Source of the DNA: Pomacea canaliculata
Taxonomy: Eukaryota > Mollusca > Gastropoda > Architaenioglossa > Ampullariidae
Direction of reading: 5' to 3'
NCBI RefSeq assembly: GCF_003073045.1
Contig: NC_037591.1
Coordinates: 24,213,319 to 24,277,318, forward strand
Length of the DNA stretch: 64,000 nt
Positions 2,543 to 56,730 of the stretch are shown here, piece after piece. The translations under genes were made by a program, and so were the position numbers. Each line of letters starts with the position of its first letter. The first letter of the stretch is position 1. The notes below the pieces were generated by a model, which was given only the letters and a program-made list of their open reading frames with translations, made no database searches and was not told the DNA's origin.

Positions 2543-4812
2543 CTACGAATTACTCTTCACTGAACTTTCATTGCTCCACAGTGTTACTGCCAAGAAACCG
2601 AAGAAAAAGATGAATGCGTAATACAATATTAAATTAACAGTTTGCGATCTACAATATGAGGAGCTAGCTTTCTTTACTTTCGCAACTGTTACTGAAGACA
2701 CTGACGACTTAAATAAGTCCATGTGAGAGATGTCGGCCACATATTTGAGGACCCAGCCATCGCCACAGCCAATAAACAAGTGGCCGTTGAGGTCAAGGTT
2801 CAGAACTGTTGGTCGCACAATGCTACCAGCCCCGGGGAGGTAGTCGATGAACCTCAGGTCAGCGTCCGTTACTTTTGTCACGTGAACACAGTCGTTCATC
2901 CAGTCTGCGATGATCAGCAAACTGTCGCCATAAAAGCAGACGTCTGTTGGAAAGAAAGGTTGTTTGGGTGGCGAGTAGGTCGCGATGGGGTCGTCAGATT
3001 TATTAGAATAAAGACGAACAACACGGGAGCCTTAGTGTCTCTTTCCTCTTCTTTCTTTGCCGAGTCGTCAGTTAGCAGTTCGCTATCATCGTCATCTACC
3101 ACAGCAAATAATACTCCAGACTTGTTTGAATCAAAGTTCTGGATTTTGTTTACCTTTGGGTGTATCAGGCTAGCATCAAGTCCACAAGCCTCCTTTCTAT
3201 CTTTGAATTTTAATTGCACCGTCCTTACATCACAGCGACCAGTTTTGATGTTCTGACAAATAGCGAACATTCTGTCACCCTTGGAGGCAAAGATCCTCAT
3301 AAAGGGGTTTTCCCATTGTATTATGTAGTCTTTACGAGTCACGTACAATGTCCGTGTTTCATATTCTGTTTTCTTGTTTACAGATCCGTTAGGATTCAGA
3401 CACACTTCCGTTGATTTAGAAAAGTCGCCTCCAGGTCCCCCGTAACAAACCTCAATCATCTCGTCCTCCTTCTGCCGCACAGCCTGCACCTCCCGGCATT
3501 CATCGCCATCATACTGACAGACGCCAACAAGACTTACCTCCCTTTGAGAGGCAACGGTCAGTTTGACTGGTGACCCGATGAACCTCTTGATGTCGTCCTC
3601 GATGTCGATGGCAAAGTTACCATAGAGTCCAGGGCGGTAACTCGTGTCCGGAAGTACAGCTTCCAGTTCCTTCAGCTGCTTGTCGCTCCCGTGTCCTCGT
3701 GTCATCTCTTTCTCCATCTGCACGACCTCCGTGTAACATTCTGAACTCAGCGTCCGTCGAGCGCGGTCTTGAAGACGGAGCAGAGAGATGAGGTCCTCTT
3801 GTATTCCCTGTGTGTGGGCGGCCAGATCCTTCTCTAAGTCATCTGACACTTCCTGGAGTTGTTGCATCGCTTGGACACCATATTTTTTTGCCATGGCCAC
3901 TATGACATTATACCGGGCTTCAATCTATTGAAAAACAAATGTTGAGTTTTGTACTGAAACTTTAAAAAAATTACATCTTAAGAAGGATAGAAACATCGTG
4001 TAACATCTGATTATTGTTATAAGCATTATCACTTTTTCTGACTTACAATGGGAGACAATTGTGATATACCAAAAACGCCTGTTTCTGTAACCTCTTTATT
4101 AATAGAGGTAATAAATGTTCTAAATATATACAAGAAGACATTTTCAAGCGTAATACCACACACACAAAATACTAATGTAAATATGCATATGCATACATAT
4201 ACGACAAATGTTAAGGAAAGATCCTGTGTGCAGGTAATTTTATTTAATTTACAATATTCGATGTTGGATGCTGACCACCTACCTGTCTGCTTGCAGCAGC
4301 TCTCTTTTCTCTGGCTTGCCTTTCGTTTTGCTTCAAAGCTTCCGACTTCTCCACCATGTGCTGCACACAGCTCTCCAGACGACCGAGATTTTCTTCAATC
4401 GTTTTCTTTCGTCGAGCGATGACGTCCGATAGCTGTTCCATCAAATGTTTTTGATGTGTGGTCAGATGACATCTTTTACATATAGCTTCGTCACACTGGA
4501 GACAGCGGAAGATAATCTTTTTATCAGTGTGGAAGGAGCACATGTTGGGGCCTCCATTCCTCCTGGCCAGCTCCAGGACGTCCTCAGGGAAGTAGAAGTT
4601 CACCTGCAGAGCGCGCACACCGCCGGCAGGTACAGTCGCAGGTGTTCTGCAGGTGGGACACCGGAGGACATGTCCGTGTTTCCCAGCCAGTGTCTCCAGA
4701 CAAGGTAGGCAGAAAGTGTGGTGACATGGCAGAAATCTCGGTGAAGTGAAAATTCTGTGCATATGGCACATGTCATGTCAATCTGCTGAGCAGCTAAGTC
4801 CAACTCCGACAT
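2543..4812 (-). CDS. TRIM-like gene copy 1 (RING, B-box, coiled coil, NHL-like) with hydrophobic C-terminal tail; two frameshifts
   Basis: Probable RING E3 ubiquitin ligase of the TRIM family. Exon 1 is 4283-4812 (start MSELDLAAQQ; acceptor TTTCAG just above 4847; donor CAG|GTAGGT). Exon 2 is 2543-3924 (acceptor ATAG, first residues IEARYNVIV). The RING starts CAICTE and continues SPRFLPCHHTFC and CPTC; the B-box has CSFH, CLQC, CKRC and two His. The C-terminal half contains PFFPTD, LLIIADWMNDCVHV and LNGHLFIGCGDGWVLKY, which resemble NHL blades. Unlike the other copies it runs on about 50 residues after the NHL region and ends in a roughly 21-residue hydrophobic segment (VNLILYYAFIFFFGFLAVTLW split over 2576-2641) and a short polar tail, as in tail-anchored proteins. 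The sequence shows one missing base in the RING near 4750 and another near 3025-3030 in the acidic linker before RVVRLYS. Either these are assembly errors or the copy is a recent pseudogene. It is one of the divergent members of the array. Confidence 0.8.
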
Positions 4813-21607: not shown

Positions 21608-23553
21608 TCAATACAGTTCAGAAATGTCACCAGGATATTTCAGGACCAAACCATCGCCACATCCAATAAGCAAGCGGCCGTTAAGGTCAAGGTTCAGAGC
21701 TGTGGGCCTCACAATGTTTCCACTTCCGGGCAGGTAGCAGACGAACAGGTCAGTCAGGTCAGTCAAACTGACGTTTGTCACGTGCACGCAGTCGTTCATC
21801 CAATCAGCGATCAGCAGCAAATTTTCGTTATAGAAGCAGACGTCTGTCGGGAAGAAGGGTTGCTTCGGTGACTCGTAGGTCGCTATGGGGTCATTAGACA
21901 TCCTAGAGTAAAGTCGCACGACGCGGTAACCATTTCGTCGTGCATTCTCCTTACTCATTATTGCTTCAAAACATGAATTTTCATCTTCGTCTTGATGCTC
22001 CTCTTCGTCTACCACAGCAAAGAAAGAACCATGAAGGCTTGCGTCAAAGTTATGTATTTTTTTTTACCCCTGGAAAAAGCAGAGGTTCACCTGAAGCAGA
22101 TATTTCCTTTCCATCTTTTTCTTTTAGCTCCATTGGACTAATACAACATAAGCCCTCTACATAATCCTGAAAAATACCAAATACGCTTGTACTCTTTGAA
22201 CCAAGTGTCCTGATCTCCGAGTCTTTCCATTCCCAAATATAAGGTTTACGTGTGACGCATGACATCCGTGTTTCACATGTGTGAACTATAACTTTAGAGC
22301 TTGCAAACCTCCAGATCGCGTATATCTCTTTGGAAAAGTCACCTCCTGTTCCTCCATAAATGACATCAATACTTTTATCCTCTCTTTGCCGAAGAGCGTG
22401 CACTTCCCTACATTCCCAATCATCACATTGACCAAGGCATTCCATGTCCACGTTTTGTACAATCGGAAAGTCCAGTCTGACTGGGGTCCCAATGAACCTC
22501 TTGATGTCCTCTTTAATGTCGTTGGTGTAGTCGCCATGGAGGCCGGGACAGAAACGCCTATCAGGCAGTCTGTCTTCAAGTTCTTTTAGGCGCTCGAAGC
22601 TTCCTTTTCCCTTTGTTATCTCTTTCTCCACCTGCAGGACCTCTGTGTCACTGGCCGAAGTCAGGGCCAGTGTGGTGCGGTTTTTAAGCTGAAGAAGGGA
22701 GTCAAGTTCGCCTTGTACTCGCTGTGTGTCAGCAGCCATTTCTTCTTCCAAACTATCGGAGATTTCTTCCAGTTGTTGCTGTGCTTGGTAACGATATTCT
22801 TGTGCCATTGCTACAATAAAGTCAAACCGGTCTTGAATCTGTTGGAAATGGAAAAAAATTTTTGTGGATAAAATCTTTTATGTCATAAAAAGTAGTATAT
22901 TTTTAATCTTAAGTATTATATACCCAAGAAGCATCTTTGTCCGTCGTGGTATCTTCTCTCTGTGTGTGTGCTTGTGTAGTGGGTGAGAGAGAGAGAAAAA
23001 AAAGAGAATATTAACCAACCTGTTTCGAGATTCCATTTCGCTTCTCTCGGGCTCGTTTCTCATTTTCTTTCAAGCATTCTAAAACATTGTTGGTCAAGAA
23101 GGCAATGGCTTCCTCTAGACGATGCATTTCCTGTTTAATGGTTTGCTGACAACGACTTGCGGTCTCGGACAGATCTTCGGTAACGTGCCCATCGTGTTTA
23201 GTCAGCTTACATCTCATACAGATGGCTTGGTCACACTGGGCACAGTAAAATAGAACACGTTCTTTAGTGTGAACAGGACACTTTGAATGGTTTTCATCAC
23301 TACGCGCCTGCTCCAGAGCTTCGTCCGTGAAGTAGAAGTTGACTTGTAGATCACACACACCACCTGGCGGTACTACAAAGGGAGTTCTACAGGTAGGACA
23401 CGGGATGGTGTTTCCATAGCGATTTGCCAGTTGCTCCAGACACTCTAGACAGAAGGTGTGGTGACAGGGCAGGAATCTCGGAGATGTAAAAACTTCTGTG
23501 CATATTGCACATGTCATGTTTATTTGAGCAGAAGCCATGTCTGCGGCTGCCAT
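21608..23553 (-). CDS. TRIM-like gene copy 4, one frameshift in a homopolymer
   Basis: Exon 1 is 23020-23553 (178 codons, start MAAADMASAQ; acceptor CAG just above the ATG). Exon 2 is 21608-22838 (first residues IQDRFDFIV, ends GDISELY). RING and B-box ligands are complete (CAIC, CHHTFC, CPTC; CPVH, CAQC, CMRC). The coiled coil and the YGGTGGDFSK motif match copy 3. The frame changes at 22057-22065, where the coding strand has nine A; eight would keep LLFPGV...HNFD in frame, so a homopolymer miscall is as likely as a real lesion. The C-terminal blade has a small in-frame insertion (NVSLTDLTDLFVCYLPG) relative to copy 3, caused by a short repeat of GTCAGTCAG on the plus strand. Its upstream region is interrupted by a LINE from about 23962, so the normal type A promoter is missing; the nearest promoter-like sequence is at 30718-30813. 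Confidence 0.82.
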
Positions 23554-23961: not shown

Positions 23962-26900
23962 AGAATCAGAATCAGTTTATTGAATAGGCCATCAGCCCTT
24001 TTCAAGGGAAAGCATAACCATCAAAGATATATATCAATAGTAATATAATTATAGGTAAGCACAACATGCCCAGGTGCAAGTAAAGATATGCATTGTCATT
24101 TAACCATACACCATACAGTTATATAAATATGCAAGTACAAATTAATACTTATCAAATTAATTTTAGTCACAAGACAGAATATAACCAACTAACATTAACA
24201 TATCTTTGGTCTAAGTCACAGTTTTTTCTTATTTCCAGTGCATTATAAACAAAAGATTCAAGACGTAGCGTAGTTCGCATTCTATTATCTGACATCAAGA
24301 GTGTGAAATGGAAAAGGGAAGGGTGCTTAGAATATTTTTTAGGGATGAAAAGTTTACGAAGGTCCATATATTTAGGGCATGTAAGGAGAAAGTGCTGTTC
24401 AGTTTCAACTATGTCAGGGCAAAAGGGGCAGTTCAAACATTTTGACTGAGTTAAAAAATAACGCTGCTGATGGCATTTAAGTACAGTTATACCCATTCTA
24501 AATTTTATGAAGGTATCTCTTATGCCTCTGTGTTTCAACCAGACAAGATAGTTGCTTAAAATAATATGAGTCTTGAATGTATTGTATGGGATATATCTTG
24601 AACTGCTTTGAATAGCATTACGCCACTGTTGGTGGTAACAGTCTATCAGTCTGCTTCAGGATTTGTAGGAACAGTTTATCATCTCCAGTCCCTTGGCTTT
24701 CCCACACTATGCCAAAACCATATTTATACAAAAATATCATAATAAAGTGCAGCCATGTTTTCTTGTTTTGCTCATGAAGTAGTGTTAACATTAAATAGGC
24801 TTTTTTCTGGAGTCTAGTTTGTGGCATTCTTAGCAAAGGAGCCAATATCCAACACACCGCACTGATGCATTAACAGACAAAGGGAATCTACCACATTCCC
24901 CATATGTCAACGAGTTACGTGTCCTCGTTATGACTCCTAAAAATCTTTTCATTGCGAAGGTGTGAACCTTCTCAATGCTATCATTACTGGTACACAGACC
25001 CCATATTTCAGAGCCCTATAAAAGTATTGGCTGGACCTGTGCATCAAAAAGTTTGAAAAACAGGTTAGGTGAAGTATCAACAATGTACCACAACAGTTTC
25101 AGAATACTTATAACTCTCCTCTTTGCTTTTTCAGCTATATCTTCTAATGCATGTGTAAAAATACACCTTGTGGAGAAAACTATACCCAAGTATTTGTATA
25201 CATTCACAATTTTTAAAAAAGAATTACCAAATAACCATTTTTCTTTACAAGATATAAAACCACCATTTCGAAAAATCAAGAAATTTGATTTATCAAGATT
25301 AACAGCAAGATTTAAAGACCTTGAGCACTGAAAAAGAATGTTCAGCTGGTTCTGCAGTCCAATGATTGTATCTGATACAAGGGCAACATCATCAGCAAAA
25401 AGTAAAATAAATATCTCAATAAGTTCTGGGGTTAGCTGGACACTATACTTCCCATACTCATTTATGTCCTTTGTTAGTTCTTTTATAAACAAAGTAAATA
25501 ATACAGGGCTGCAAATCTCACCTTATTTAAGGTCACAGGGACATTCAATATAATCAGACAGTTTTGCACCAGCTCGCACTCTAGCCTTTACATTATTGTA
25601 CATGCTTTGGATTGCTAAAACCATTTTTCCTTTTAAACCATTTTTTTATAAGTATATTCCATAGCTTGTTTCTTGAAACCATATCGAACGCTTGACAAAA
25701 GTCTATGAAAGCAAAATACAATTTTTTATGGTTTAGTAGCTGTTTCTGAATTAATGCCATGAGGAAAAAAGCTTGGTCTATGGTACTGTACCCTCTCCTG
25801 AACCCTACTTGTTCTTCCCCGATTATTTCATTGTCCTCCATCCAATCTGTAATTCTCTTAATCAAAATAGCACTATATATTTTACTACAGAGATTTAGTA
25901 GAAAAATGTCTCGATAATTTTCTGGTTTACTGGGATCACCTTTTTTTGTGTAATGGTTGTATTATTGATTCAGTTCACTGGTCAGGAAATAGGCTGTTGT
26001 CAAACAGGTAGTTAAAGTATGTGGTGAGAAAAGGGAGGACATAATCCAAGGCATATTTATAAAGTTCTCCAATTAAGCCATCTGGCCCAGCTGCCTTCTT
26101 GTTGTTTAAGGATCTCAAAACATTTACTATTTATTCTTCTGAGATAAAACTGTTTAGTGCTTCATCATTTTCCTTAGTGGTGCTACTAATATCCTATGTT
26201 ATACTATTATAACGAGCTGCAATACTGCTGTCTGTCACTTCTCTGCTTGGATTAAAAACACAGTTAAAATGGTTGAACCATTGTTCAGTAGGTACAGGGT
26301 GTGCAACTGGGGGTTTCCTCTGGATGGTCTTGACTGTTTCCCAAAACCATTTAGAATCAGTTATATTTTCTTTTAGACATCTCACTAAAGAGTTTTTATG
26401 GTCTGCTTTTTTCTTACAAAGCAATTTTTTGTAGATTTTCCTATATTGCAGATATTTTTGTCTTTCCTCATCACATTGTGATGTACAAAATTTCTTGAGG
26501 GTCTTGCGTAGATGTTTCCTGCTTTCTCTACATTCTGCATCAAACCAAACTTTTTTTCTCTCTCTCCCTGTGTATATGGTCTTCTTAACACATTCACCAG
26601 CTAACCATAAGTCATCACTGAACATTGTAAGGGCAGTATTTATGTCTTTTACAATAAGATTTTCAGCCTCCCTAAAGAGGCTTTGCACAACATCACTTTG
26701 AAGCTTGATCTGAAACTAAGATTTTATCACCTTTCCATATAAATTTTTCAAAATTACATTCTGAAATTTGCTTCTTGATCCCTACTATCGAAACGAGTTA
26801 AGTACTTCAACTCTACAGGCATGTGTTTGGATTCCACCATAGGTAAAACTGGGAGAAGATGGCACATCCTCAGTAAAGTTTCAGAAACAATAAAATAATC

Positions 26901-32387: not shown

Positions 32388-34295
32388 TCAATACATTTCA
32401 GAAAGGTCACCAGGATATTTCAGGACCAAACCATCGCCACATCCAATAAGCAAGCGTCCGTTAAGGTCAAGGTTCAGAGCTGTGGGCCGCACAATGTTCC
32501 CACTTCCGGGCAGGTAGTCGACGAACGTCAGGCCAGTCGCACTGACTTTTGTCACGTGCACACTGTCGTTCATCCAATCAGCGATCAGCAGCAACTCTTC
32601 GCCATAGAAGCAGACGTCTGTCGGGAAGAAGGGTTGTTTCGGTGACTCGTAGGTCGCTATGGGGTCATTAGACATCCTAGAGTAAAGTCGTACAACACGG
32701 TCACCATTTTCCGGTGCATTCTCATTAGTCATTATTGCTTCATAACTTGAATTTTCATCTACATCTTGATGCTCCTCTTCGTCTACCACAGCAAAGTAAG
32801 ATCCAGGAAGGTTTGCGTCAAAGTTATGTATTTTGTTTACCCTTGGAGAAAGCAGACGGTCGCTTAAATGGAATGTTTCTTTTCCATCTTCCTGTTTTAG
32901 CACCATTGGACTAATATAGCCCTCTGCATGATTCTGAAACAGACTAAACATGCTTGTACTCTTGGAACCAAATCTCCTGATCTCTGAGTTTTTCCATTCC
33001 CAAATATAAGATTTACGTGTGACGCATGTTACCCGCTTTTTAAAACTTTGAATTATACCTTTAGAGCCTGCAGACTCCCAGTTCACGTATTTCACTTTGG
33101 AAAAGTCACCTCCTGTTCCTCCATAAAAGACATCAATAATTTTATCCTCTTTTTGCCGAAAAGCGTGCACTTCCCTACATTCGCTATCATCTAATTGACC
33201 CAAGCATTCCATGTCCACGTTTTGTACAATCGGAAAGTCCAGTCTGACTGGGGTCCCAATGAACCTCTTGATGTCCTCTTTAATGTCGTTGTTGAAGTCG
33301 CCATGGAGGCCGGGACAGAAACGCGTATCAGGCAGTCTGTATTCAAGTTCTTTTAGGCGCTCGAAGCTTCCTTTTCCCTTTGTTATCTCTTTCTGCACCT
33401 GCAGGACATCCGTGTCACAGGCAAAAGTCAATGCTAGTTTAGTGCGGTTTTTAAGCTGTAGAAGGGAGTCAAGTTCGCTTTGTACTCGCTGTGTGTCAGA
33501 AGCCATTTCTTTTTCCAAACTATCGGAGATTTCTTTCAGTTGTTGCTGTGCTTGGTCATGACATTCTTTTGCCATTGCTACAATAAAGTCAAACCGGTCT
33601 TGAATCTGTAGGAAACGGAAACATTGTTTCTGGATAAAATCTTTACGTCATGAACAGCGTTATATTTTTTAATCGTAAGTATTATATACCCAAGAATCAT
33701 ATTACAACAGTCTGTCGCGGTTTCTTCTCTGTGTGTGTGTGTGTTTGTGTGGTGGGTGAGAGAGAGAGCATTTACCAACCTGTTTCGAGATTCCATTTCG
33801 CTTCTCTTGTGCTCGTTTTTCATTTTCTTTCAAACATTCCAATTTGTTGGTCACGTTGTCAATGGAATCCTCTAGACGATGCAGTTACTGTTCAATGGTT
33901 TGCTTACAACGAGTTGCGGCCTCAGACAGATCTTCGGTAGCGTGCCCATCGTGTCTAGTCAGCTTACATCTAATACAAATGGCTTGGTCACACTGTGTAC
34001 AGTAGAATATGACATTTTCTTTACTGTGAACAGAACACATCGAATTGCTTTCATCACTGCGTGCCTGCTCCAGAGCTTCTTCCGTGAAGTAGAAGTTGAC
34101 TTGTAGAGCACACACACCACCTAGTGGTACCACAAAGTGAGCTCTACAGGTAGGACATGGGATGGTGTTTCCGTGGCGATTTGCCAGTTGCTCAAGGCAC
34201 GCTAGACAGAAACTGTGATAACAGGGCAGGAATCTCGGGGATGTGTAAATTTCTCTGCAGACAGCACATGTCATGTTTATCTGAGTAGAAGCCAT
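32388..34295 (-). pseudogene. TRIM-like gene copy 5 with premature stop in exon 1 (could yield a RING/B-box-only product)
   Basis: Exon 1 is 33780-34295 and exon 2 is 32388-33605; exon 2 is open throughout (IQDRFDFIV to GDLSEMY). A TAA codon at 33885-33887 replaces the conserved GAA of the QELHRLE motif, so translation from the Met at 34295 (MASTQINMTC) gives 136 residues: RING (CAVC, CYHSFC, CPTC) and B-box (CSVH, CTQC, CIRC) but no coiled coil. The usual acceptor CAG is changed to CAT here and the first Met of the other copies is lost. A new TATTTCAG about 16 bases downstream could serve as acceptor and would leave the second Met as start. Alternatively, an ATG at 34320-34322 lies on the old acceptor in the same frame. 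The intron has a (TG)n tract. Whether this is a dead gene or a short regulator cannot be told from sequence. Candidate type A first exon and TATA box are at 35265-35360. Confidence 0.75.
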
Positions 34296-35722: not shown

Positions 35723-38700
35723 ACCTCAAGCTTATTGCTCTGTAGACAACCCCAGCCGACGACGATGGCGATGGCGACAACGACAAAGAAAGAAGAGAAA
35801 GACTAAGCAACGGAGCGTGAAGCAAAGGAAGATCACCACAGACAGAAAGTGGAGATCAGACCAAATCGTGTTTAAAGCACGTACACGCACATCAGTCTCT
35901 CACCTATGTAAGCATAGATAAAGCGGCTATCTCACCTGGATATACCTGGAGATACCTCCAGCACAGAGACCATTTAAATATCACTTTAAGAACCAACTTC
36001 AGGTGACCATGAGATAATGTAGTCATTTTTTAGTTAGCCCGGCACTGTTCTTGATAAATGAATCTCATTTCTTTCTCGGTGACAAGAGGTCAATATTATT
36101 TTCTTGAAAAATAAAAGATTTTATTCATCCCAGAAGGAGATTTATGGCAGATCGAGATAAAAGCACAAAAAATAGACTAATAACAGGTACAAACCTAAAC
36201 ATTTGAGCCAACTGCTTCATGACAGGTTGTGTTTGGGCCATGTACATTGTGAAACACACTTACAAGTCTCGTGCACATGGGCCTTATGCGCTAAATATCC
36301 TACAAATACTTTAGTTTGAAAATATATCTTACCTTTCTTACCTTTTGTCGAACAGAAGAAACTATGTACACGTCTACAACCACATACCTTGTGACATACC
36401 TGGAAAGGCAACAGCACGATGAGTAGGGAGCTATTTTCGTACGAAACAGAGGAAATTCCTAGAAACTGATTTTAGTTTTCGTTTTCGGTAAGTTCTTTTG
36501 TCAGCTTAGATCATCGAAGGTTTTGGCTTTAACAGTTAGAACGACTCCCAGCACAATGCTTCTCCTCAACCTTCTCATTTCCGTTTATTTCTACTTTCAA
36601 CTTGTCATCCTCTACTGAATCATGAAGATGTTAGTTTATTATTACAATATATACCAGCAGAGGTTAAGCTCAAGGTTTATGTCACTGTGCAGTGTTGGTG
36701 TGAACAGTAAAGCAATATTATGATCTGCGAGTAGCATGCGAAAGATTTCCGTCCTCAAAACAAAACTCTAACTAAACGATAGTTGTATTCCACGCGATAA
36801 TAATATACAAAATAAACTGCGCATAAATGCTAAAACTTACCGATAAGTATATATATATTTACTGACTGAGCAGATCACGAACCAGGTAAAAAAAAGGTTC
36901 AGTTAAAAAGGTATTGGAACATATCAAAGCACTGTTCAGTCTACTGAACTGCTAAAGCGATTCGCATGTAAACCTAATAATGCCAAATGTCGGTTACTAT
37001 TTGACGCGAAACATAAACCCATTACAAATATATAAGTATATGAATAAAAATATATAAAAGATTCTTACCTTTGTAGAAATTTAGTAAGGGACTACATGCA
37101 GCTGAGGTGCACGCCACCTGTTTGTAATAAAGATAATCACAGGAGTGGAAGGAGATTTGTTTTTATTTAGCAGGACGCAGTGCTCGCGGTTATTTTCAGT
37201 AACTGACTTCAGTTTCGCTAACGGGAGTTTCTACTTTCGCTTTATGGCAACCAAAGTTTTGACTGAAATAAGGTGAAGTGAAAAACAAGTAAATTAAAAC
37301 AGCAGTTGATGTTGGCAAATCAACTTCTACACCCCGGCAGTGTTTTGAGAGTCCACAATACAGTCTACATTGTATCCGAAGTCCGTGTCACTCCTTCAGT
37401 AAATCATAGGAACACATTTCCCTATTGCTGAAGCACAAATTTTAAGCAATATTGATATGCATTCAATACCTTGTTATTGAATTATTTAATTTAGATGTGA
37501 GTTGCCGAATGTAGTTCATGAAATGTCTTACCAATATGTGTATAAGTCTATTATTCTGTCGACCAGAGCCTGCATTGCCTATACATGTACTCATAAACTG
37601 TTCAGGCCGATCTTGAGAGATTGTTATTACAACACGGGTATCGTCTGGCCGATTGTCAGGTTTCATCCAACATGTAGCTGCCTGCAGCTCTGTGAGTTCT
37701 GTAAACCTGTCTGGAAACAGTAACTCGTATCAGACAGTTCTTGACATCGCTCTGTTGCTTCCCCTATTTCATGTTTTCCTCAACCAGCAGGTCCTCCCTT
37801 GTACACTCCAAATGATGAGGAAGGGAGCTCATCGTGTTTGAACTCGTTTTTTTTAAAGTCATTAATTGAAAGAGAGAACGGACAGTTGTATGGCGCAAAA
37901 TACTGCGCAGTCACGGTTCGTGGAAAAGGTCTCATGCCACTTCACAAATTAGTTTGTGTAGACTCATTTCTGATTGTCACACCTTACACAATCAGATACT
38001 GAGTCTACGACAGATACACGGGGTCTGAGTAAAGGACGGTCTTCTCTGGACGACAGTCTAAGTCAATGAATAAATCCCTTCATCCACTTGGTTTATTGAA
38101 TTCTCTACCACAAAGGACTACTGCACGTATGAGTATCAGGAAAGAATAAATGGAGTATGAGTTCAAGTGTAAGTCATGATAAAACTAAACAGTAATCTCA
38201 TGATGTGTGGGTAACATGTGATATTGTGTCGTGTACTTCTCACTCACCATTTACGGTGATGTGGAGATATTTGAACTTTCCTTTCGTCTTGTATCTTGAC
38301 CCATCTGTACCAAGGAGAAATGGTTGTGTCTCTTCTGTTTGTTACACTTAATTAAATAACTTACTTTTCACTTGACGAAGCCTTCTTATTGTTATCTTTT
38401 AATGCTATGTTCGAATGCCATTATTTGTTTGTAATTAGCTATAGGTTTTGCAGGTTTTCATCTTGCTGCGTAGACGCACTTCAGTGAGGTTATAAGACTC
38501 GTGTGATGTGCCGACAGGGTAAAGAATAAATTGCACTTGAGATCTCTTTTTATGCAAATTATTTGTCGTCTTTCTCTGTGTATATATATATATGGCACTC
38601 ATACACATATAACGTGTCACATTCTCTTTCAAAGTCAGACTAACCACTCACTGTGGCGCTTTGGAAGCACGAGTTGTCCACCCTCTGTCTAGTATCGTGG

Positions 38701-39582
38701 TATATTTAATTTCAAAATAAGAGTTATTCCGACATTGGTGGTTTCTCAATTAGACATGGATTTGCACTCCAACAACCGAAAATGACAAAAAATAGTAAGC
38801 AATGTTTACATTCTAATATGTATTCTAATAAATATGTTTGTTGTGCAGTTTATGTTTGTATATTATGAACTTATCATTCTTCTCATTTCTATTCTCATTC
38901 TCCGTCCCATAGAGTTAAAATCGTTCATTTGAATTTAGTAGAACAAAACAATCTAGTCACACCACGTTAATGTTTCAAAATGCTCTTTAAAATTGTGTTT
39001 CACAGAAGGTTGTCTTTAATGTTGATTACTGGTTAATAATATATAAAAAAAACAAGAGGTCGCGAGTTTCTGGCCTTGGTTTGCTGGGAAGATTGATTTA
39101 AAAAAATAGTAACTATTTTCAGTAACAGCTGTTCAAAAAACTACGAACAAGACCGACTATATCCGTACATCTGAAACCACATCATCACACGTGAAGGACA
39201 TGTATTATGAAAGAACTGTTTCAGTTCTTAGCCACTCTGACCCCATGCATGTCCAGACCATCATGGAATACATTATCGTATAAAGTGGTACATAAACAGT
39301 TAAGAATACATTCAGAGAAAGGAGTTTGCAGGATAAATCATTTTTGTACAGAAGCATGCACCGATGCATTAGATACTAATGTTGAACTTTCGTTTTATAA
39401 ACAAGCAGTACATTACTTTCACATCGATAAGTGTACCTCATTAACAATGATATTTTTTGACACGAGTAATTCACTACCTTCCTTCTTATGAGCATTTTAA
39501 AAACTTATTTTATTAAGACTTATTTTTTTTTTAATCTGTACAAAATCTCCCTAAATTTTTTTTTTGAGTTGTAATAATATCT
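35723..39582. other. Distal 5' flank of copy 5; extra donor-like sites, no gene
   Basis: Shared with 47350-50935. It has further minus-strand donor sites that recur in the duplicate: GTAAGATA near 36335 (also 47755 and 59190), GTAAGTTTT near 36838, and GTAAGAATC near 37068 (also 48463). These could be alternative first exons. Reading frames here are short and not conserved. Its left edge and 38520-38730 are also found at 59340-59510, next to copy 8. Confidence 0.4.
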
Positions 39583-39890
39583 CTCACTCGTAGAACACTC
39601 CACACCTGCTGTCATGGCGCAGGGATCAGTTCTGGGAAAACAAACCATATATGGGAAGCTTTTAATTATTTATAGAGCACAGCCATGACTAGAATGTGAC
39701 ATCATGTTTGTAGATGTCCATAGTGAGTGACTCTATTATCCCAAAGTTCATGTTCTCATTGTATAGGAATGAACTAAAGTACGATTAGTTTACAATTATG
39801 GTCAAACTATTATTTAATCACACATCGATCTTGAAAAATTACTGTTATTTTAAGCACATTTATAGACCTCGCCCTCTGGTGGAAATTCCC
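39583..39890 (-). promoter_or_regulatory. Type B promoter candidate upstream of copy 5, partly eroded
   Basis: kB consensus 39881-39890, CTCF-like motif 39869-39882 (one mismatch at its first base), TATAAATA 39667-39674, perfect CArG box CCATATATGG after AAACAAA, and STAT-type TTCTGGGAA at 39630-39638. The IRF-like core is changed and the donor now reads GTGAGA, shifted by one base relative to the other copies. Confidence 0.4.
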
Positions 39891-41702
39891 GATTTCATAG
39901 TAGATGTTTCAAGTAACCACCAACTCGTTCATAATAATAATAACAAATTGAACTTAATACCGGAGATATTGCAACCATATAGACAATATTGTTGCTCGTT
40001 ACACATTATACTAATTACTATCGACGATTACAAAGAAAGAGTGAGCACTGCATTAGGTAAAAAGAGATAACTACAGATATAAAGTCAATCATAGATAAAA
40101 TCGATCTTGTTTTTTTATACAATTGAGTAACATGTAACTAGAGACTTGTGCTACGTTCTGTAGACATCACCTGACTGGCATAATTAGGACTTTATCTGAC
40201 ATTTATAAACCAACAACATCTTGTAGGAGGCAGAGCTACGAAGAGTGTTTTACATGTGAGTGATTAGTAAATGAGGATAAATGACCTTATAGGGTCAAAG
40301 GTGTAGTACTCCGCTACATAGAAAAAATCCCCAGGCCTCCAACCCCGATGGCCCTCCTACATTAGGACTGAAAATACTACACTACAGACTTGAAACACAA
40401 TATCTGCATGAGTAATTAAATCCCTTCCTATGGACTACATTCCCTTGGTATCTTCTCTGTACCTCAAACCTTCGTAATACCGGAGCAGAGAATAAGTCAT
40501 AAAAAGCATATCACTAAAATAATATACAGAGAAATATACAGCATGTGTGTAGGTGTGAAAGAGAGAGTTTATTATACCAGTGTGTGTCATAGAGATTCAT
40601 TGTTTTTAATTATTGTAATATAACCAAAATAGTATCTTGTGATATAATAAAATAAATTGTAGACAATTTTAATTCCATGGCTATATTTTATTATCCAGTT
40701 TAAATAACATGCAACTCGTTACTACATGTCTCTAGTTTGGAGTCTGTTGTGGCTTTTTCACAAGAGAATAACATGCTTTAAATAGGTGTGAAATATAGAG
40801 CACTAGTAGTTTTGTGCAGGCTCAACTAAGGACCAGTAGATTTTATAACACAAAAGGCATGAGGTGAAATAAAGAACTTTACTATTTATCTATCAAGAGT
40901 ACAACCTTTTAAAAGAAAGTTAAATGTGAAACCAATAAATGCACTTACAGTATTACATATATCATACATAAAACAGTTCAAACATTTTTGCATCAGTTTT
41001 CACGCTTTAACAGTTAAAAGACCGAATAAGTAAAAAATTAAAATTAAACCATCAAATCAATCCACTTGACATTTTCCTTCTGAATATGAAGATAACTGAC
41101 GTGTAAATTATAAAATAATATAACACGACATCCAGACACAGAAATGAACTAAATTTCTCAAACCAAATTTTTAATTTATTTATAAATACATTTCGATACA
41201 ACTTTTTCTCAGCTTTAAGCGCTCTGTGCAGCGCTAGCATTCTAAAGTAACACATCAACACAAAAAATTGTATCCACACCTCTTTCTCTGCAATATACTA
41301 GAACAAATGAATACAATTTACACGAGTTAACATGTGAAATAAAGAATGGAAATTCTTGTTAAAAAAGTAAAACCAAAGCACATACGCTCAGCAATCCCCA
41401 CGATGTTTAAGCACTACTTACAGTCGTGGATTATAAGATTCTGAAAGAAATATTTTGGGCACGAAATGACATTTTCAGCGGATTGGCAAAATGAATCGAC
41501 TGGTTTGCCGTACAGACTTTTGTTCCTTTCGTCAAAAACAGAGAAATGACAAATATTTGAGAAATTAGCATCATGTAACAAATTAAATAAAAATACAGTG
41601 ATTTATCAGCAAAAATAATGAAGGTTACAGGCGTTCCCAATAACCATTATTTCAGTAGTAAGTGTTTAGTTATATGTTATGTGTGAGAACAGTAAACTAA
41701 GA

Positions 41703-42148
41703 CAGTGATGCCCAACCTTTTTCGGCCTACGGGCCATATACATTTCAGACATGCGTGTCAGGGGCCGCTTCACCGCAAAAAATACAAAAAAAATAAAAAA
41801 AAAATAGAGCAGATACCATTTTTATTAGAAACAAGCTGTACTTACCATTAATTATGTACTAATTAGTGGGATATTTGAAGTTGTTTACCGAAACCAACTT
41901 CTGAATCTCCGGCCTCATCGTAGAGACACCAAGTCGGAGAACTGAATCGAAATGTTCGTCCATCGAAAAAAAGATTGGGAAACGCCCCTACGTAGGGATA
42001 AATACTTCTTCCATTTTTTTTCGTTTTTTAGGTCTTTTTTTATTACTAACATGCCGATTTCCTGCACTGTGGGCAGAAGTTTCGCGGGCCGGATGGCACC
42101 GCGTCGCGTGCCGGATATGGCCCGCGGGCCGTAGGTTGTGCATCCCTG
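41703..42148. mobile_element. hAT-type MITE (first copy)
   Basis: 446 bp with imperfect 15-bp terminal inverted repeats (CAGTGATGCCCAACC and CAGGGATGCACAACC) and a perfect 8-bp target duplication AACTAAGA (41695-41702, 42149-42156), the size typical of hAT elements. The empty site AACTAAGATATCC is present in the flanks of copies 3, 4 and 5. It contains no transposase. Confidence 0.85.
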
Positions 42149-42461
42149 AACTAAGATATCCAGAACATTGTACAGGAGTGCATTACTATACACCTTGACA
42201 AAAAACGAAACATCAAGGTCTGTAAGAAAAAGCAAGTAGGCATCACTCTTTCTGTAAAACATTTTAAACAATTCTCTTTTAAAAATCGAGTCATTATGTT
42301 ATCCACATTATATTATCTACACAAAAAAAATAGTAAAAATAGAAATGACAGGCCACAGCCCCGTCACGTGCTTGTGTCCCGCAGCCTTCAGGTGAACAGG
42401 AGCTTGGAATGGTGAGTAGACAGTAGCTAAAATGTGTAAGTGCAGAAAGGTAAATCCATTT

Positions 42462-42940
42462 GCAGGAAAGAAATCAACTGACCACATTACTCCTGTACTT
42501 CGTGACCTACATTGGCTTCCTGTGGAGAAGCGAATTGAGCACAAATTGTTAACCTTAACCTATGGCTGTCTTCACGACCTTACGCCTGTCTATCTACAAG
42601 AACTCATTCGCTGTTACCAACCCCAGCGGAACCTTCGTTCAGCAGCACACTTCAGACTTGAACGACCGAGTGTTCAGTCAGGGAATGCTAATAAGAAGAC
42701 TGCGGGTTTCAGATCCTTCTCCAATGTAGCCCCTCTTTTGTGGAACTCGCTTCCCCTCTCGACCAAGGAGTCTGATAGTATTGCATCTTTCAAGAAAAAT
42801 CTTAAGACTCACTTGTTTAAACTTTTTTGAAGTTTTCATTTGACCTGCAGTTTGGTGGCTGCTGGGATCACCGCGCATTGAGCGCATCTTTGTGATGCGG
42901 TTACTAGCGCGCTATAAAACTACATCATCATCATCATCAT
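42462..42940 (+). mobile_element. 5'-truncated L2/CR1-like LINE, 3' end only
   Basis: The open frame 42432-42830 encodes the C-terminal region that follows the reverse transcriptase in CR1/L2-type LINEs: HITPVLRDLHWLPVEKRI, LLTLTYGCLHDLTPVYLQEL, LRSAAHFRL, APLLWNSLPLS and FKKNLKTHLFKLF. The 3' UTR ends GCGCGCTATAAAA followed by (CAT)n. Short target duplications (AATCCATTT-like) bracket it. It inserted at the stop codon of the TRIM-like gene and supplies the C-terminus of copy 6. Confidence 0.85.
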
Positions 42941-44879
42941 CCATTTCATAAATGTCAGCAAGATAGTTTAGGACCAAACCATCGCCACATCCAATAAGCA
43001 GGTGGCCGTTAAGGTCAAGGTTCAGAGCTGTGGGCCGCACAATGTTCCCACTTCCGGGCAGGTACCAGACGAACGTCAGGCCAGTCGAACTGACTTTTGT
43101 CACGTGCACACAGTCGTTCATCCAATCAGTGATCAGCAGCAAATTTTCGTTATAGAAGCAGACGTCTGTCGGGAAGAAGGGTTGTTTCGGTGACTCGTAG
43201 GTCGCTATGGGGTCATTAGACATGCTAGAGTAAAGTCGTACAACTCGGTCACCATTTTCCCGTGCATTCTCTTTACTCATCATTGCTTCATAACTTGAAT
43301 TTTCATCTTCATCTTGATTCTCCTCTTCGTCTACCACAGCAAAGTAAGATCCAGGAAGGTTTGCGTCAAAGTTATGTACTTTTTGTACCCTTGGAGAAAG
43401 CAGACGGTTGCCTAAATTACATGTTTCTTTTCCCTCTTCCTGTTTTAGCACCATTGGACTAATATAACATAAGCCCTCTGCATGATTCTGAAACATACCA
43501 AACATGCTTGTACTCTTGGAACCAAATGTCCTGATCTCTGAGTCTTTCCATTCCCAAAAATAAGATTTACGTGTGACGCATGTTATCCGCGTTTCACATG
43601 AGTGAACTATAACTTTAGAGCCTGCAGACCCCCAGTTCACGTATATTTCTTTGGAAAAGTCACCTCCTGTTCCTCCATAAATGACATCAATACTTTTATC
43701 CTCTCTTTGCCGAAGAGCGTGCACTTCCCTACTTTCCCTATCATCACATTGACCCAGGCATTCCATGTCCACGTTTTGTACAATCGGAAAGTCCAGTCTG
43801 ACTGGGATCCCAATCAACCTCTTGATGTCCTCTTTAATGTCGTTGGTGAAGTCGCCATGGAGGCCGGGACAGAAACACATATCAGGCAGTCTGTCTTCAA
43901 GTTCTTGTAGGCACTCGGAGCTTCCTTTTCCCTTTGTTATCTCTTTCTCCACCTGCAGGACCTCCGTGTCACTGGCCGAAGTCAGGGCCAGTGTGGTGCG
44001 GTTTTTAAGCTGAAGAAGGGAGTCAAGTTCGCTTTGTACTCGCTGTGTGTCAGAAGCCATTTCATCTTCCAAACTATTGGACATTTCTTCCAGTTGTTGG
44101 TGTGCTTGGTCATGATATTCTTTTGCCATTGCTACAATAAAGTCAAACCGGACTTGAATCTGTTGGAAATGGAAACAGTATTTCTGGATAAAATCTTTTA
44201 TATTTCATAAAAAGCATTATATTTTTAATCTTTTATTATTGTATACTCAAGAAGCCTCTTACAACAGTCTGTCGTGGTTTCTTCTCTGTGTGTTTGTGCT
44301 GTGGGTGAGAGAGAGAGAAATAAAAGAATAGAGGGAACATTTACCAACCTGTTTCGAATTTCCATTTCGCTTCTCTCGGGCTAGTTTCTGATTTCTTTTC
44401 AAACATTCTAATTGGTTTGTGACGTGGTCAATGGATTCCTCTAGACGATGCAGTTCCTGTTTAATGGTGTGCTGACAACGACTTGCGGCCTCGGACAGAT
44501 CTTCGGTTACATGCCCCTCGTGTCTAGTGAGCTTACATCTCATACAGATGGCTTGGTCACACTGTGTACAGTAGAATAGGACACGTTCTTTAGTGTGTAC
44601 AGGACACTTTGAATGGCTTTCATCTCTACGCGCCTGCTCTAGAGCTTCGTCCGTGAAGTAGAAGTTGACTTGTAGATCACACACACCACCTGGCGGTACA
44701 GTAGCAGGAGCTCTACAGGTAGGACACGGGATGGTGTTTCCATGGCGATTTGCCAGTTGCTCCAGGCACTCTAGACAGAAGGTGTGATGACAGGGCAGGA
44801 ATCTCGGAGATGTAAAAACTTCTGTGCATATTGCACATGTCATGTTTATCTGTACAAAAGCCATGTCTGAGGATGCCAT
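42912..44879 (-). CDS. TRIM-like gene copy 6, intact, with LINE-derived poly-Asp C-terminus
   Basis: Both exons are open; the predicted protein is 592 residues. Exon 1 is 44349-44879 (177 codons, start MASSDMAFVQ; donor CAG|GTTGGT). Exon 2 is 42912-44159 (acceptor CAACAG, first residues IQVRFDFIV). RING: CAIC, CHHTFC, CLEC, CPTC. B-box: CPVH, CTQC, CMRC, two His. Central motifs YGGTGGDFSK, VTRKSYFWEW and HNFDANLPGSYFAVVDE match copy 3, as do the NHL-like blades. Where copies 3-5 end in SEMY-stop, this one reads YEM followed by six Asp and VVL before a TAG. Those last ten codons and the stop come from the 3' end of a plus-strand L2/CR1-like LINE (42462-42940), whose ATC repeats are GAT codons on this strand. 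The candidate type A promoter is at 46746-46841 and type B at 50936-51236. Confidence 0.9.
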
Positions 44880-53806: not shown

Positions 53807-54267
53807 GCAGGAAAGAAATCAACTGACCACATTACTCCTGTACTTCGTGACCTACATTGGCTTCCTGTGGAGAAGCGAATTGAGCACAAATTGTTAACCT
53901 TAACCTATGGCTGTCTTCACGACCTTACGCCTGTCTATCTACAAGAACTCATTCGCTGTTACCAACCCCAGCGGAACCTTCGTTCAGCAGCTCACTTCAG
54001 ACTTGAACGACCGAGTGTTCAGTCAGGGAATGCTAACAAGAAGACTGCGGGTTTCAGATCCTTCTCCAATGTAGCCCCGCTTTTGTGGAACTCGCTTCCC
54101 CTCTCGACCAAGGAGTCTGATAGTATTGCATCTTTCAAGAAAAATCTTAAGACTCACTTGTTTAAACTTTTTTGAAGTTTTCATTTGACCTGCAGTTTGG
54201 TGGCTGCTGGGATCACCGCGCATTGAGCGCATCTTTGTGATGCGGATACTAGCGCGCTATAAATCTG

Positions 54268-54306
<39 letters not shown>

Positions 54307-54319
54307 TCATCATCATCAT

Positions 54320-54366
<47 letters not shown>
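53807..54366 (+). mobile_element. 5'-truncated L2/CR1-like LINE with expanded CAT tail
   Basis: It has the same insertion and the same encoded LINE C-terminus (frame 53777-54175) as 42462-42940. Its tail is longer: (CAT)n at about 54267-54311, a CAC run near 54320-54334, then CAT repeats to 54366. Read on the minus strand this gives the Asp and Gly run at the end of copy 7. Confidence 0.85.
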
Positions 54367-54368
<2 letters not shown>

Positions 54369-56730
54369 TTTCAGAAATGTCACCAAGATATTTCAGGACC
54401 AAACCATCGCCACATCCAATAAGCAGGCGGCCGTTAAGGTCAAGGTTCAGAGCTGTGGGCCGCAAAATGTTCCCACTTCCGGGCAGGTAGTCGACGAACG
54501 TCAGGCCAGTTGTAGTGACTTTTGTCACGTGCACACAGTCGTTCATCCAATCAGCGATCAGCAGCAACTCTTTGTCATAGAAGCAGACGTCTGTCGGGAA
54601 GAAGGGTTGTTTCGGTGACTCGTAGGTCGCTATGGGGTGATTAGACTTGCTAGAGTAAAGTCGTACAACGCGGTAACCATTTTGTCGTGCATTCTCCCTT
54701 CTCATCATTGCTTCATCACTTGAATTTTCATCTTCGTCTTGATACTCCTCTTCGTCTACCACAGCAAAGAAAGATCCAGGAAGGTTTGCGTCAAAGTTAT
54801 GTACGCTTTCTACCCGCGGAAAAAGCAGAGGGTCACCTAAAACAGTGGTTCTCAAAGTTTTTCGGACCGCGGACCACTTTACTTAAGTAAAACCTACGGC
54901 GGACCACCAAGTCCTTAGTAAAAACTATGGCGGACCATCAAGGCCTAAAAATCAGTCTGTACTATGAATTTCAAATTTAAATTGGCGCATTTGTTTCATT
55001 TTAATTCAAAACTTAATGTCCTTTTGTAAAAGTAGTATAGTAATAAGTTGACATAAAACTACGTATACCTCGTTCTTTGTAATTAAAATGTTAATGCGAG
55101 GAACGCATCTCTTTAAACATCCCTTTGCTGACATATGACGACTGTCAGCCGCGGACCACCTAACTTATGCCCACGGACCACTAGTGGTCCGCGGACCACA
55201 CTTTGAGAACCACTGACCTAAAATACGTGTTACCTTTCCATTTTCATATTCTAGCTCCACTGGACTAATATAGCATATGTCCTTTGTATAATTCTGAACA
55301 ATAGCAAGCATGCTTACACTCTTAGAACCAAATGCCCTGAACTCCGACTCTTCCCATTCCCAAATATAAGGTTTACGTGTGACGCATGTTATCCCCGTTT
55401 CATATGTGTTCTTTATACATTTAGAGCCTGCAGACCCCCATGTCATGTGTTTCTGTTTGGAAAAGTCCCCTCCTGTTCTTCCATAAATTATATCAATACT
55501 TTTGTTCTCTTTTTGAAGAAGAGCGTGCACTTCCCTTCAATCGCTATCATCAGATTGACTCAAGCATTCCGTGTCCACGTTTTGTCCAATCGGAAATTCC
55601 AGTCTGACAGGGATCCCAATGAACCTCTTGATGTCCTCTTTAATGTGGTTGGTGAAGTCGCCATGAAGGCCGGGACAGAAACACGTATCAGGCACTGCAT
55701 TACCAAGTTCTTTTAGGCGCTTGGAGCTTCCTTTTCCCTTTATTATCTCTTTCATCACCTGCAGGACCTCCATGTCACAGCCTGAAGTCAGGGCTAGTCT
55801 AATGCGGTCGTTAAGCTGTAGAAGGGAGTTAAGTTTGCTTTGTACTCGCTGTATGTCAGCAGCCATTTCTTTTTCCAAACTATCGGAGATTTCTTCCAGT
55901 TGTTGTTGTGCTTGGTCACGATATTCTTTTGCCATTGCTACAATTAAGTCGAACCGGTCTTGAATCTGTTGGAAATGGAAACAGCATTTCTGGATAAAAT
56001 TGTGTATGTCATAGAAAGCATTATATGTTTAATCTTTAGTATTTTATGTCGAAGAATATCTTACAACAGTCTGAAGTGGTTTCTTCTCTGTGTGTGTGTG
56101 TTTGTGTGGTGGGTGAGAGAGAGAGCATTTACCAACCTGTTTGGAGATTCCATTTCGTTTCTCTCGGGCTCGTTTCTCATTTTCTTTCAAATATTGTAAA
56201 AAATTGTTGGTTATGTAGTCAGTGGATTCCTCTAGATGATGCAGTTCCTGTTTAATGATTTGCTGACAACGACTTGCGGTCTCGGACAGATCTTCGGTTA
56301 CATGCCCCTCGTGTTTAGTCAGCTTACATCTCAAGCAGATGACTTGGTCACACTGGTCGCAGTAAAATATGACACGTTCTTTAGTGTGTACAGGACACAT
56401 CGAATGGCTTTCATCACTACATGCCTGCTCCACAGCTTCTTTAGTGTGGACATAACACTTTGAATGGCTTTCATCACTACGTGCCTGCTCTAGAGCTTCG
56501 TCAGTGAAGTAGAAGTTGACTTGTAGAGCACGCACACCACCTGGCGGTACAGTAGCAGGAGCTCTACAGGTAGGACACGGGACGGTGTTTCCATGGCGAT
56601 TTGCCAGTTGCTCTAGACACTCTAGACAGAAGGTGTGATGACAGGGCAGGAATCTCGGGGATGTAAAAACTTCTGTGCATATTGCACATGTCATGTTTGT
56701 CTGTACAGAAGCCATGTCTGAGGCTGCCAT
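54316..56730 (-). pseudogene. TRIM-like gene copy 7, disrupted by a MITE and a stop; B-box half duplicated; poly-Asp/Gly tail
   Basis: Exon 1 is 56137-56730 (198 codons, start MAASDMASVQ) and is open. Exon 2 is 54316-55965. Exon 1 has a 60-bp in-frame tandem duplication (56380-56439 and 56440-56499): EALEQARSDESHSKCYVHTK is followed by EAVEQACSDESHSMCPVHTK, doubling the first C-x2-H ligand pair of the B-box. In exon 2 a TGA at 55537-55539 replaces the conserved Cys of DSECREVHAL, and a 373-bp hAT-type MITE with 8-bp target duplications sits at 54843-55215, inside the sequence for the region before HNFDANLPG. The C-terminus runs into the tail of an L2/CR1-like LINE, giving EM, eleven Asp and six Gly before TGA. 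A full-length protein is not possible as read. A RING/B-box/coiled-coil fragment of about 330 residues could still be made. Confidence 0.85.
54843..55215. mobile_element. hAT-type MITE inserted in exon 2 of copy 7
   Basis: 373 bp with terminal inverted repeats beginning CAGTGGTTCTCAAAG and an 8-bp target duplication ACCTAAAA (54835-54842, 55216-55223). Internal GGACCGCGGACCAC repeats occur near both ends. The insertion is absent from the same exon in all other copies. Confidence 0.9.

Follow-up and report, generated by a model that had tools for sequence, protein, structure and literature searches.

An antisense LINE insertion gives the open reading frame of a TRIM-like gene in Pomacea canaliculata an acidic C-terminal tail and a new stop codon

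The stretch of DNA analysed here, referred to as the window, comprises 64,000 nucleotides of the Pomacea canaliculata genome (C2:24213319-24277318), and genome searches were made in the 440,159,624-base assembly of 24 contigs to which it belongs. The gene of interest, copy 6, is a member of a tandem TRIM-like family on C2; when the genome was searched with the last 105 residues of the gene, 43 of the 45 matched pieces fell inside about 375 kb of this contig. Exon 1 of copy 6 (44349-44879, minus strand; 177 codons, limits set by our own judgement) is an open frame with Pfam matches above the cut-offs for zf-RING_UBOX (8e-10) and zf-B_box (1.8e-08), and it ends at the donor CAG/GT. Exon 2 (42912-44159, minus strand; 415 codons and a stop) follows the acceptor CAACAG/ATT and lies in a stop-to-stop frame of 430 amino acids (42912-44204), which bears out the statement of an earlier sequence-only reading that the rest of the protein is open. 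Judged by these borders, the two exons can be joined in phase 0. Copy 6 resembles the NHL-type TRIM proteins TRIM2 and TRIM3 in its RING finger and B-box, in a predicted long helix and in a predicted C-terminal body rich in strands, and its best profile matches among solved structures, albeit weak, are TRIM3 (E 0.041) and TRIM2 (E 0.26); it differs from them in that exon 2 gives no Pfam match at E values up to 1. As to the neighbouring genes, the last 67 or so residues of copy 1 (2543-2740, minus strand) form a tail in which, unlike in its neighbours, there is a stretch resembling a membrane anchor (LILYYAFIFFFGFLAVTLW, mean hydropathy 2.18). Copy 4 has two open frames in exon 2 that overlap at 22050-22063, likely reflecting a frameshift, and the sequence between copies 4 and 5 includes a fragment of a retroelement, recognised by its RVT_1 match (25016-25522, minus strand).

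At the end of copy 6 the gene-strand bases 42950 to 42912 read Y-E-M-D-D-D-D-D-D-V-V-L-stop, with the stop codon at 42914-42912. The poly-aspartate C-terminus reported by the sequence-only reading is thus found by direct reading where it had been placed. The end of this frame runs into a 477-bp LINE (42462-42938, plus strand) that is antisense to the gene and truncated at its 5' end; read on the plus strand from 42462 it first encodes the C-terminus of an ORF, after which come about 110 bases of 3' UTR and a CAT repeat. By its motifs we take the element to be CR1/L2-like, and all three longer relatives tested contain an RVT_1 domain (L041, 1.2e-23; L049, 6.2e-30; L047, 1.3e-19). The insertion bears the hallmarks of a LINE, namely the 5' truncation, a simple-repeat 3' end and an exact 8-bp target-site duplication, AAATGGAT on the gene strand, which flanks the element at both ends in copy 6 and likewise in copy 7. 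In copy 6 the duplication lies at 42939-42946 on the gene side and at 42454-42461 on the far side, both on the minus strand. CAT-repeat 15-mers with at most one mismatch occur 20 times in the window as compared to a mean of 0.02 in shuffled sequence.

The position of the duplication makes it possible to assign every codon of the tail. Six GAT codons (42924-42941, minus strand) encode the aspartates, the first of which (42939-42941) lies inside the gene-side duplication and is host sequence, whereas the other five, the Val-Val-Leu and the stop belong to the LINE, the last four codons (GTA GTT TTA TAG, 42912-42923, minus strand) coming from its 3' end. The claim that the element supplies VVL and the stop in frame is hence borne out, and the claim that it supplies all six aspartates is correct for five. 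As both copies of the duplication carry GAT, the last codon before the insertion was Asp and not Tyr as in copies 3-5. Behind the far-side duplication the position of the old TGA reads TTA in copy 6, but copy 7 reads AAATGGATTGACC there and retains the TGA directly after the far-side GAT, so that the end of the gene before insertion can be reconstructed as EM-D-stop (ATG GAT TGA). The antisense LINE does sit at the end of the gene, as the sequence-only reading had it, yet it did not land at a SEM-Y codon, as the target read ATG GAT and no Tyr was replaced; nor do copies 3-5 uniformly stop after SEM-Y, which is the case in copies 3 and 5 whereas copy 4 ends SEL-Y-stop. Since both the repeat and the target contain GAT, the joint can be shifted by one unit, which leaves the reading unchanged. 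No AATAAA or ATTAAA hexamer is present within the first approximately 870 bases behind the new stop, the antisense LINE included, and the LINE hence adds no such signal of its own.

The repeat is a regular constituent of the element. Of the 18 distinct family places inspected, among them copies 6 and 7, all end in CAT repeats (13 places came from a pattern that requires a CAT tail, and 5 missed by the pattern were read separately and have the tail too). The exact 28-base gene-strand tail has 139 matches in the genome, and the reversed control pattern has none; 100 places were listed and 50 of them read (30 and 20 loci). Among the 50 places read the repeat ranges from 4 to 9 GAT, with the floor of 4 set by the search pattern, and 6 is the commonest length (15 of 50), so that the repeat of copy 6 is typical of the family. 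When a 369-base piece of the LINE was compared with the genome, the best 40 of 297 candidates were at least 97% identical and the 41st piece 92%; the family appears to be young, although its youth is overstated by these identities as the 40 are the best-scored of the 297. Depending on the frame, the antisense end of the LINE is read as D(n)-VVL-stop, as M(n)-stop or as an immediate stop. An antisense insertion would thus close any frame inside the repeat or a few codons later, and its tail adds acidic residues in one phase of three. A run of at least 100 codons joins the GAT frame at one of the 50 places read, which is copy 6 itself, and a run of at least 50 codons at five; the ATG frame is joined by a run of at least 100 codons at one place (L068). 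By eye, L068 as well as L084 resemble other retroelements. With copy 6 as the only GAT-frame run of this length among the 50 places, such captures look rare.

The insertion is, however, not confined to copy 6, for which alone the LINE capture had been given, because copy 7 contains the same LINE at the same base (53807-54363, plus strand). Site and 5' truncation are identical to those in copy 6, the duplication AAATGGAT is found at 54371-54364 and 53806-53799, and the repeat is expanded to about 99 bases and interrupted. Read inside the LINE tail, copy 7 ends SEM-D11-G5-stop. Its exon 2 contains an in-frame stop after 142 residues and a 373-bp insert (54843-55215) with terminal inverted repeats CAGTGGTTCTCAAAGT at both ends and a perfect 8-bp duplication TTTTAGGT, which is presumably a hAT-like element. 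Taken together, the nonsense codon and the hAT-like insert suggest that copy 7 is probably a pseudogene, and its longer repeat is accordingly best seen as unconstrained drift. A recent burst of hAT-Charlie elements is reported for Pomacea canaliculata (PMC6129957). In exon 1 of copy 7 a portion of the sequence ahead of the B-box core is present twice, owing to a 60-base tandem duplication (56377-56506).

How did the same insertion come to be in two neighbouring genes? Units 6 and 7 have a 6.8-kb flank in common that is 94.6% identical, and within it lies a near-identical tract (41497-42938) with 11 substitutions in 1439 positions, as opposed to 187 in 4892 in the flank (36500-41496) and 39 in 475 in the adjoining coding sequence. 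The difference is significant against the flank (Fisher p 4e-11) and against the coding sequence (2e-15), and an equally poor window was seen in none of 2000 shuffles, all for edges chosen after looking, the left one picked from the data, and for counts of substitutions that exclude the indels (3 bases at 41792-41794 and the GAT repeat itself). On the coding side the first difference between the two copies is at 42949, three bases past the duplication, and copy 6 can also be told from copy 7 at 42958, 42966 and 42969. Conservation as the cause of the tract was ruled out, as over the 3' UTR stretch copies 3, 4 and 5 show 48/344, 68/347 and 69/350 differences to copy 6, respectively (about 12-15% in BLAST pieces). 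The pattern of substitutions points to gene conversion or a crossover with an edge at or beside the GAT repeat, and its simplest reading would be that the LINE was taken along in a recent exchange whose tract stopped there. Over the last 478 coding bases the closest sequence to copy 6 is that of copy 5, with 33 differences, and at the end of the coding sequence the closest to copy 7 is copy 3 (36/475), as compared to 39 differences between copies 6 and 7; these differences are small, and the pattern would be in line with mosaic copies.

The main competing history, to which we give a substantial though smaller weight, has the LINE inserted before unit 6 and unit 7 arose by duplication, with conversion having only homogenised the copies and no LINE passing from one paralogue to the other. 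Presence of the insertion in both copies within their common 6.8-kb flank is what this order of events predicts. However, at the divergence of the flank (187/4892) about 8 to 9 changes would be expected per LINE copy where 4 are seen: over 454 aligned columns of the LINE, 2 changes absent from the family loci are common to both copies and 2 are unique to each (of 17 matching loci, the count took in the 13 that cover more than 440 bases; as L002 and L041 represent a single place, 12 are distinct). These numbers are small and the counter-evidence is correspondingly weak. The few changes in the LINE against 3.8% divergence of the flank thus favour, but do not prove, insertion after the duplication and later transfer.

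But is the tail part of a protein at all? It could be a mere open frame, with copy 6 silent or its transcripts ending or being spliced before the LINE, in a gene that is decaying like copy 7. We consider this unlikely, albeit an explanation to be reckoned with. In its favour, copy 7 is broken, copy 4 has its exon 2 in two frames and exon 2 of copy 6 lacks a clear sign of purifying selection, as its dN/dS is 0.79 against copy 3 and 1.65 against copy 5 (computed from copies 3, 5 and 6 only). Against it, copy 6 has an open frame in each exon and usable splice borders, the first approximately 870 bases past the new stop are free of the poly-A hexamers named above, and dN/dS in exon 1 is 0.36-0.48 relative to copies 3, 4 and 7 (copy 5 not included, copy 7 shortened). 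Between the second exons of copies 5 and 6 (32391-33615 and 42915-44159) there are 80.5 changes at 952 amino-acid-changing sites versus 13.5 at 257 silent sites, and the ratio of 1.65 may be hinting at diversification in the TRIM-like cluster.

Translation of the tail, which we favour over a mere open frame, would be expected to do little harm. Ends were read at 22 of 30 paralogue loci (the other 8 have no match to the end motif and were left out of the counts), and they range from a plain VPVDY-stop to an extension of some 67 residues that contains a hydrophobic stretch of 19. As C-termini vary this freely among paralogues, tolerance of a new tail is to be expected, and the acidic tail is probably tolerated. 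The conserved core of 17 aligned exon-2 proteins ends at GCGDG-WVL ahead of the tail; the alignment comprises 16 of 20 exon-2 frames and the window's own, of which L009 is a second record, with L028, L029 and L038 omitted without a strict rule. An AlphaFold model built from this alignment is of moderate quality (mean pLDDT 71.1, pTM 0.64) and consists of a long helix, predicted at residues 2-60 of exon 2, where a TRIM protein would have its coiled coil after the B-box (block pLDDT 49-72), and a strand-rich body, with pLDDT below 50 at residues 409-415. Among the 50 Foldseek matches listed most are G-beta and other WD40-type chains with query TM scores of 0.30-0.40, and none is a TRIM NHL entry. 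According to the model, the tail probably hangs free of the propeller-like domain. One paralogue has an enlarged Asp/Glu-rich loop inside exon 2 (L017:1489-2790), and acidic runs are thus found elsewhere in the TRIM-like family.

A far more ambitious interpretation would combine these elements and regard the antisense 3' end of the LINE as a portable C-terminal cassette that was handed from one paralogue to another in this TRIM-like cluster by a conversion tract bounded by the repeat, and whose acidic tail came under selection in copy 6. If so, an insertion near the end of a gene would swap its tail cleanly and in the GAT phase add D(n)-VVL-COOH, and we assume that the hydrophobic VVL end could suit a PDZ-type pocket. 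As a joint claim we find this very improbable. Two further explanations are contradicted by the data. That the Asp run arose from a microsatellite of the host, grown in place and unrelated to the LINE, is hardly credible: one GAT did pre-exist and the repeat of copy 7 has clearly grown, but copies 3-5 have no repeat at this position, elsewhere the LINE normally closes with this repeat and copy 6 has the family-typical 6 units. Independent insertion of the LINE family into copy 6 and into copy 7, conceivable for a young and numerous family, can be dismissed virtually outright, as base, 5' truncation and duplication are the same where unequal truncation points would be expected, two private changes are shared and near-identity extends past the LINE.

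Taken together, we consider it highly probable that one antisense LINE insertion, common to copies 6 and 7, provided copy 6 with its in-frame tail and stop. A young, 5'-truncated CR1/L2-like element would have inserted once into the last codons of a TRIM-like gene that ended ATG GAT TGA, presumably by target-primed reverse transcription, as suggested by the 5' truncation, by the duplication and by the GAT common to both sides at the joint. Its CAT repeat would have extended the GAT phase by five more Asp codons, its constant 3' end would have added Val-Val-Leu-stop, and the old stop would thereby have been displaced behind the LINE into what is now the 3' UTR. Tandem duplication, a later conversion or crossover tract, or both would then have placed the insertion in the neighbouring copies 6 and 7, of which copy 7 appears to have decayed through the nonsense codon, the hAT-like insert and the long interrupted repeat, while copy 6 has retained its open frame and a repeat of family-typical length. 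The protein is predicted to have gained a flexible acidic extension past the final strand of a propeller-like domain.

Events of this type are already known as regards both LINEs in coding exons and LINE tails that make microsatellites (PMC2911107, PMC2887409). RTE elements in Lepidoptera have very short 3' UTRs and 3' ends that are simple repeats and seed microsatellites, with frequent 3'-terminal partial copies spreading them (PMC2887409). The element described here is similar in this, but there RTE-clade elements are seen as marker loci, whereas here a CR1/L2-like repeat would be read as protein at the end of a gene. Likewise, in the Drosophila genes cno, CG14821 and nej a LINE within a coding exon adds amino acids to the host protein, and invertebrate cases are called anecdotal in that paper (PMC2911107). 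The Drosophila insertions it describes are divisible by three, free of stops and situated in internal exons, whereas in copy 6 the C-terminus is replaced and the element brings its own stop. A limited literature search brought up no earlier account of a poly-Asp C-terminus derived from the tail of a LINE.

At the level of the DNA the capture is genuine, one event present in two copies, and what distinguishes it is that the stop comes with the element and that the presumed boundary of recombination falls at the repeat. With empty-site paralogues, both copies of the duplication, the old stop still legible in copy 7 and an elongated sister repeat, the locus would preserve an unusually complete record of a mobile element rewriting the end of a protein. 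We suggest that the constant 3' end of such a LINE can serve as a C-terminal tag that is predictable in sequence and carries its own stop.
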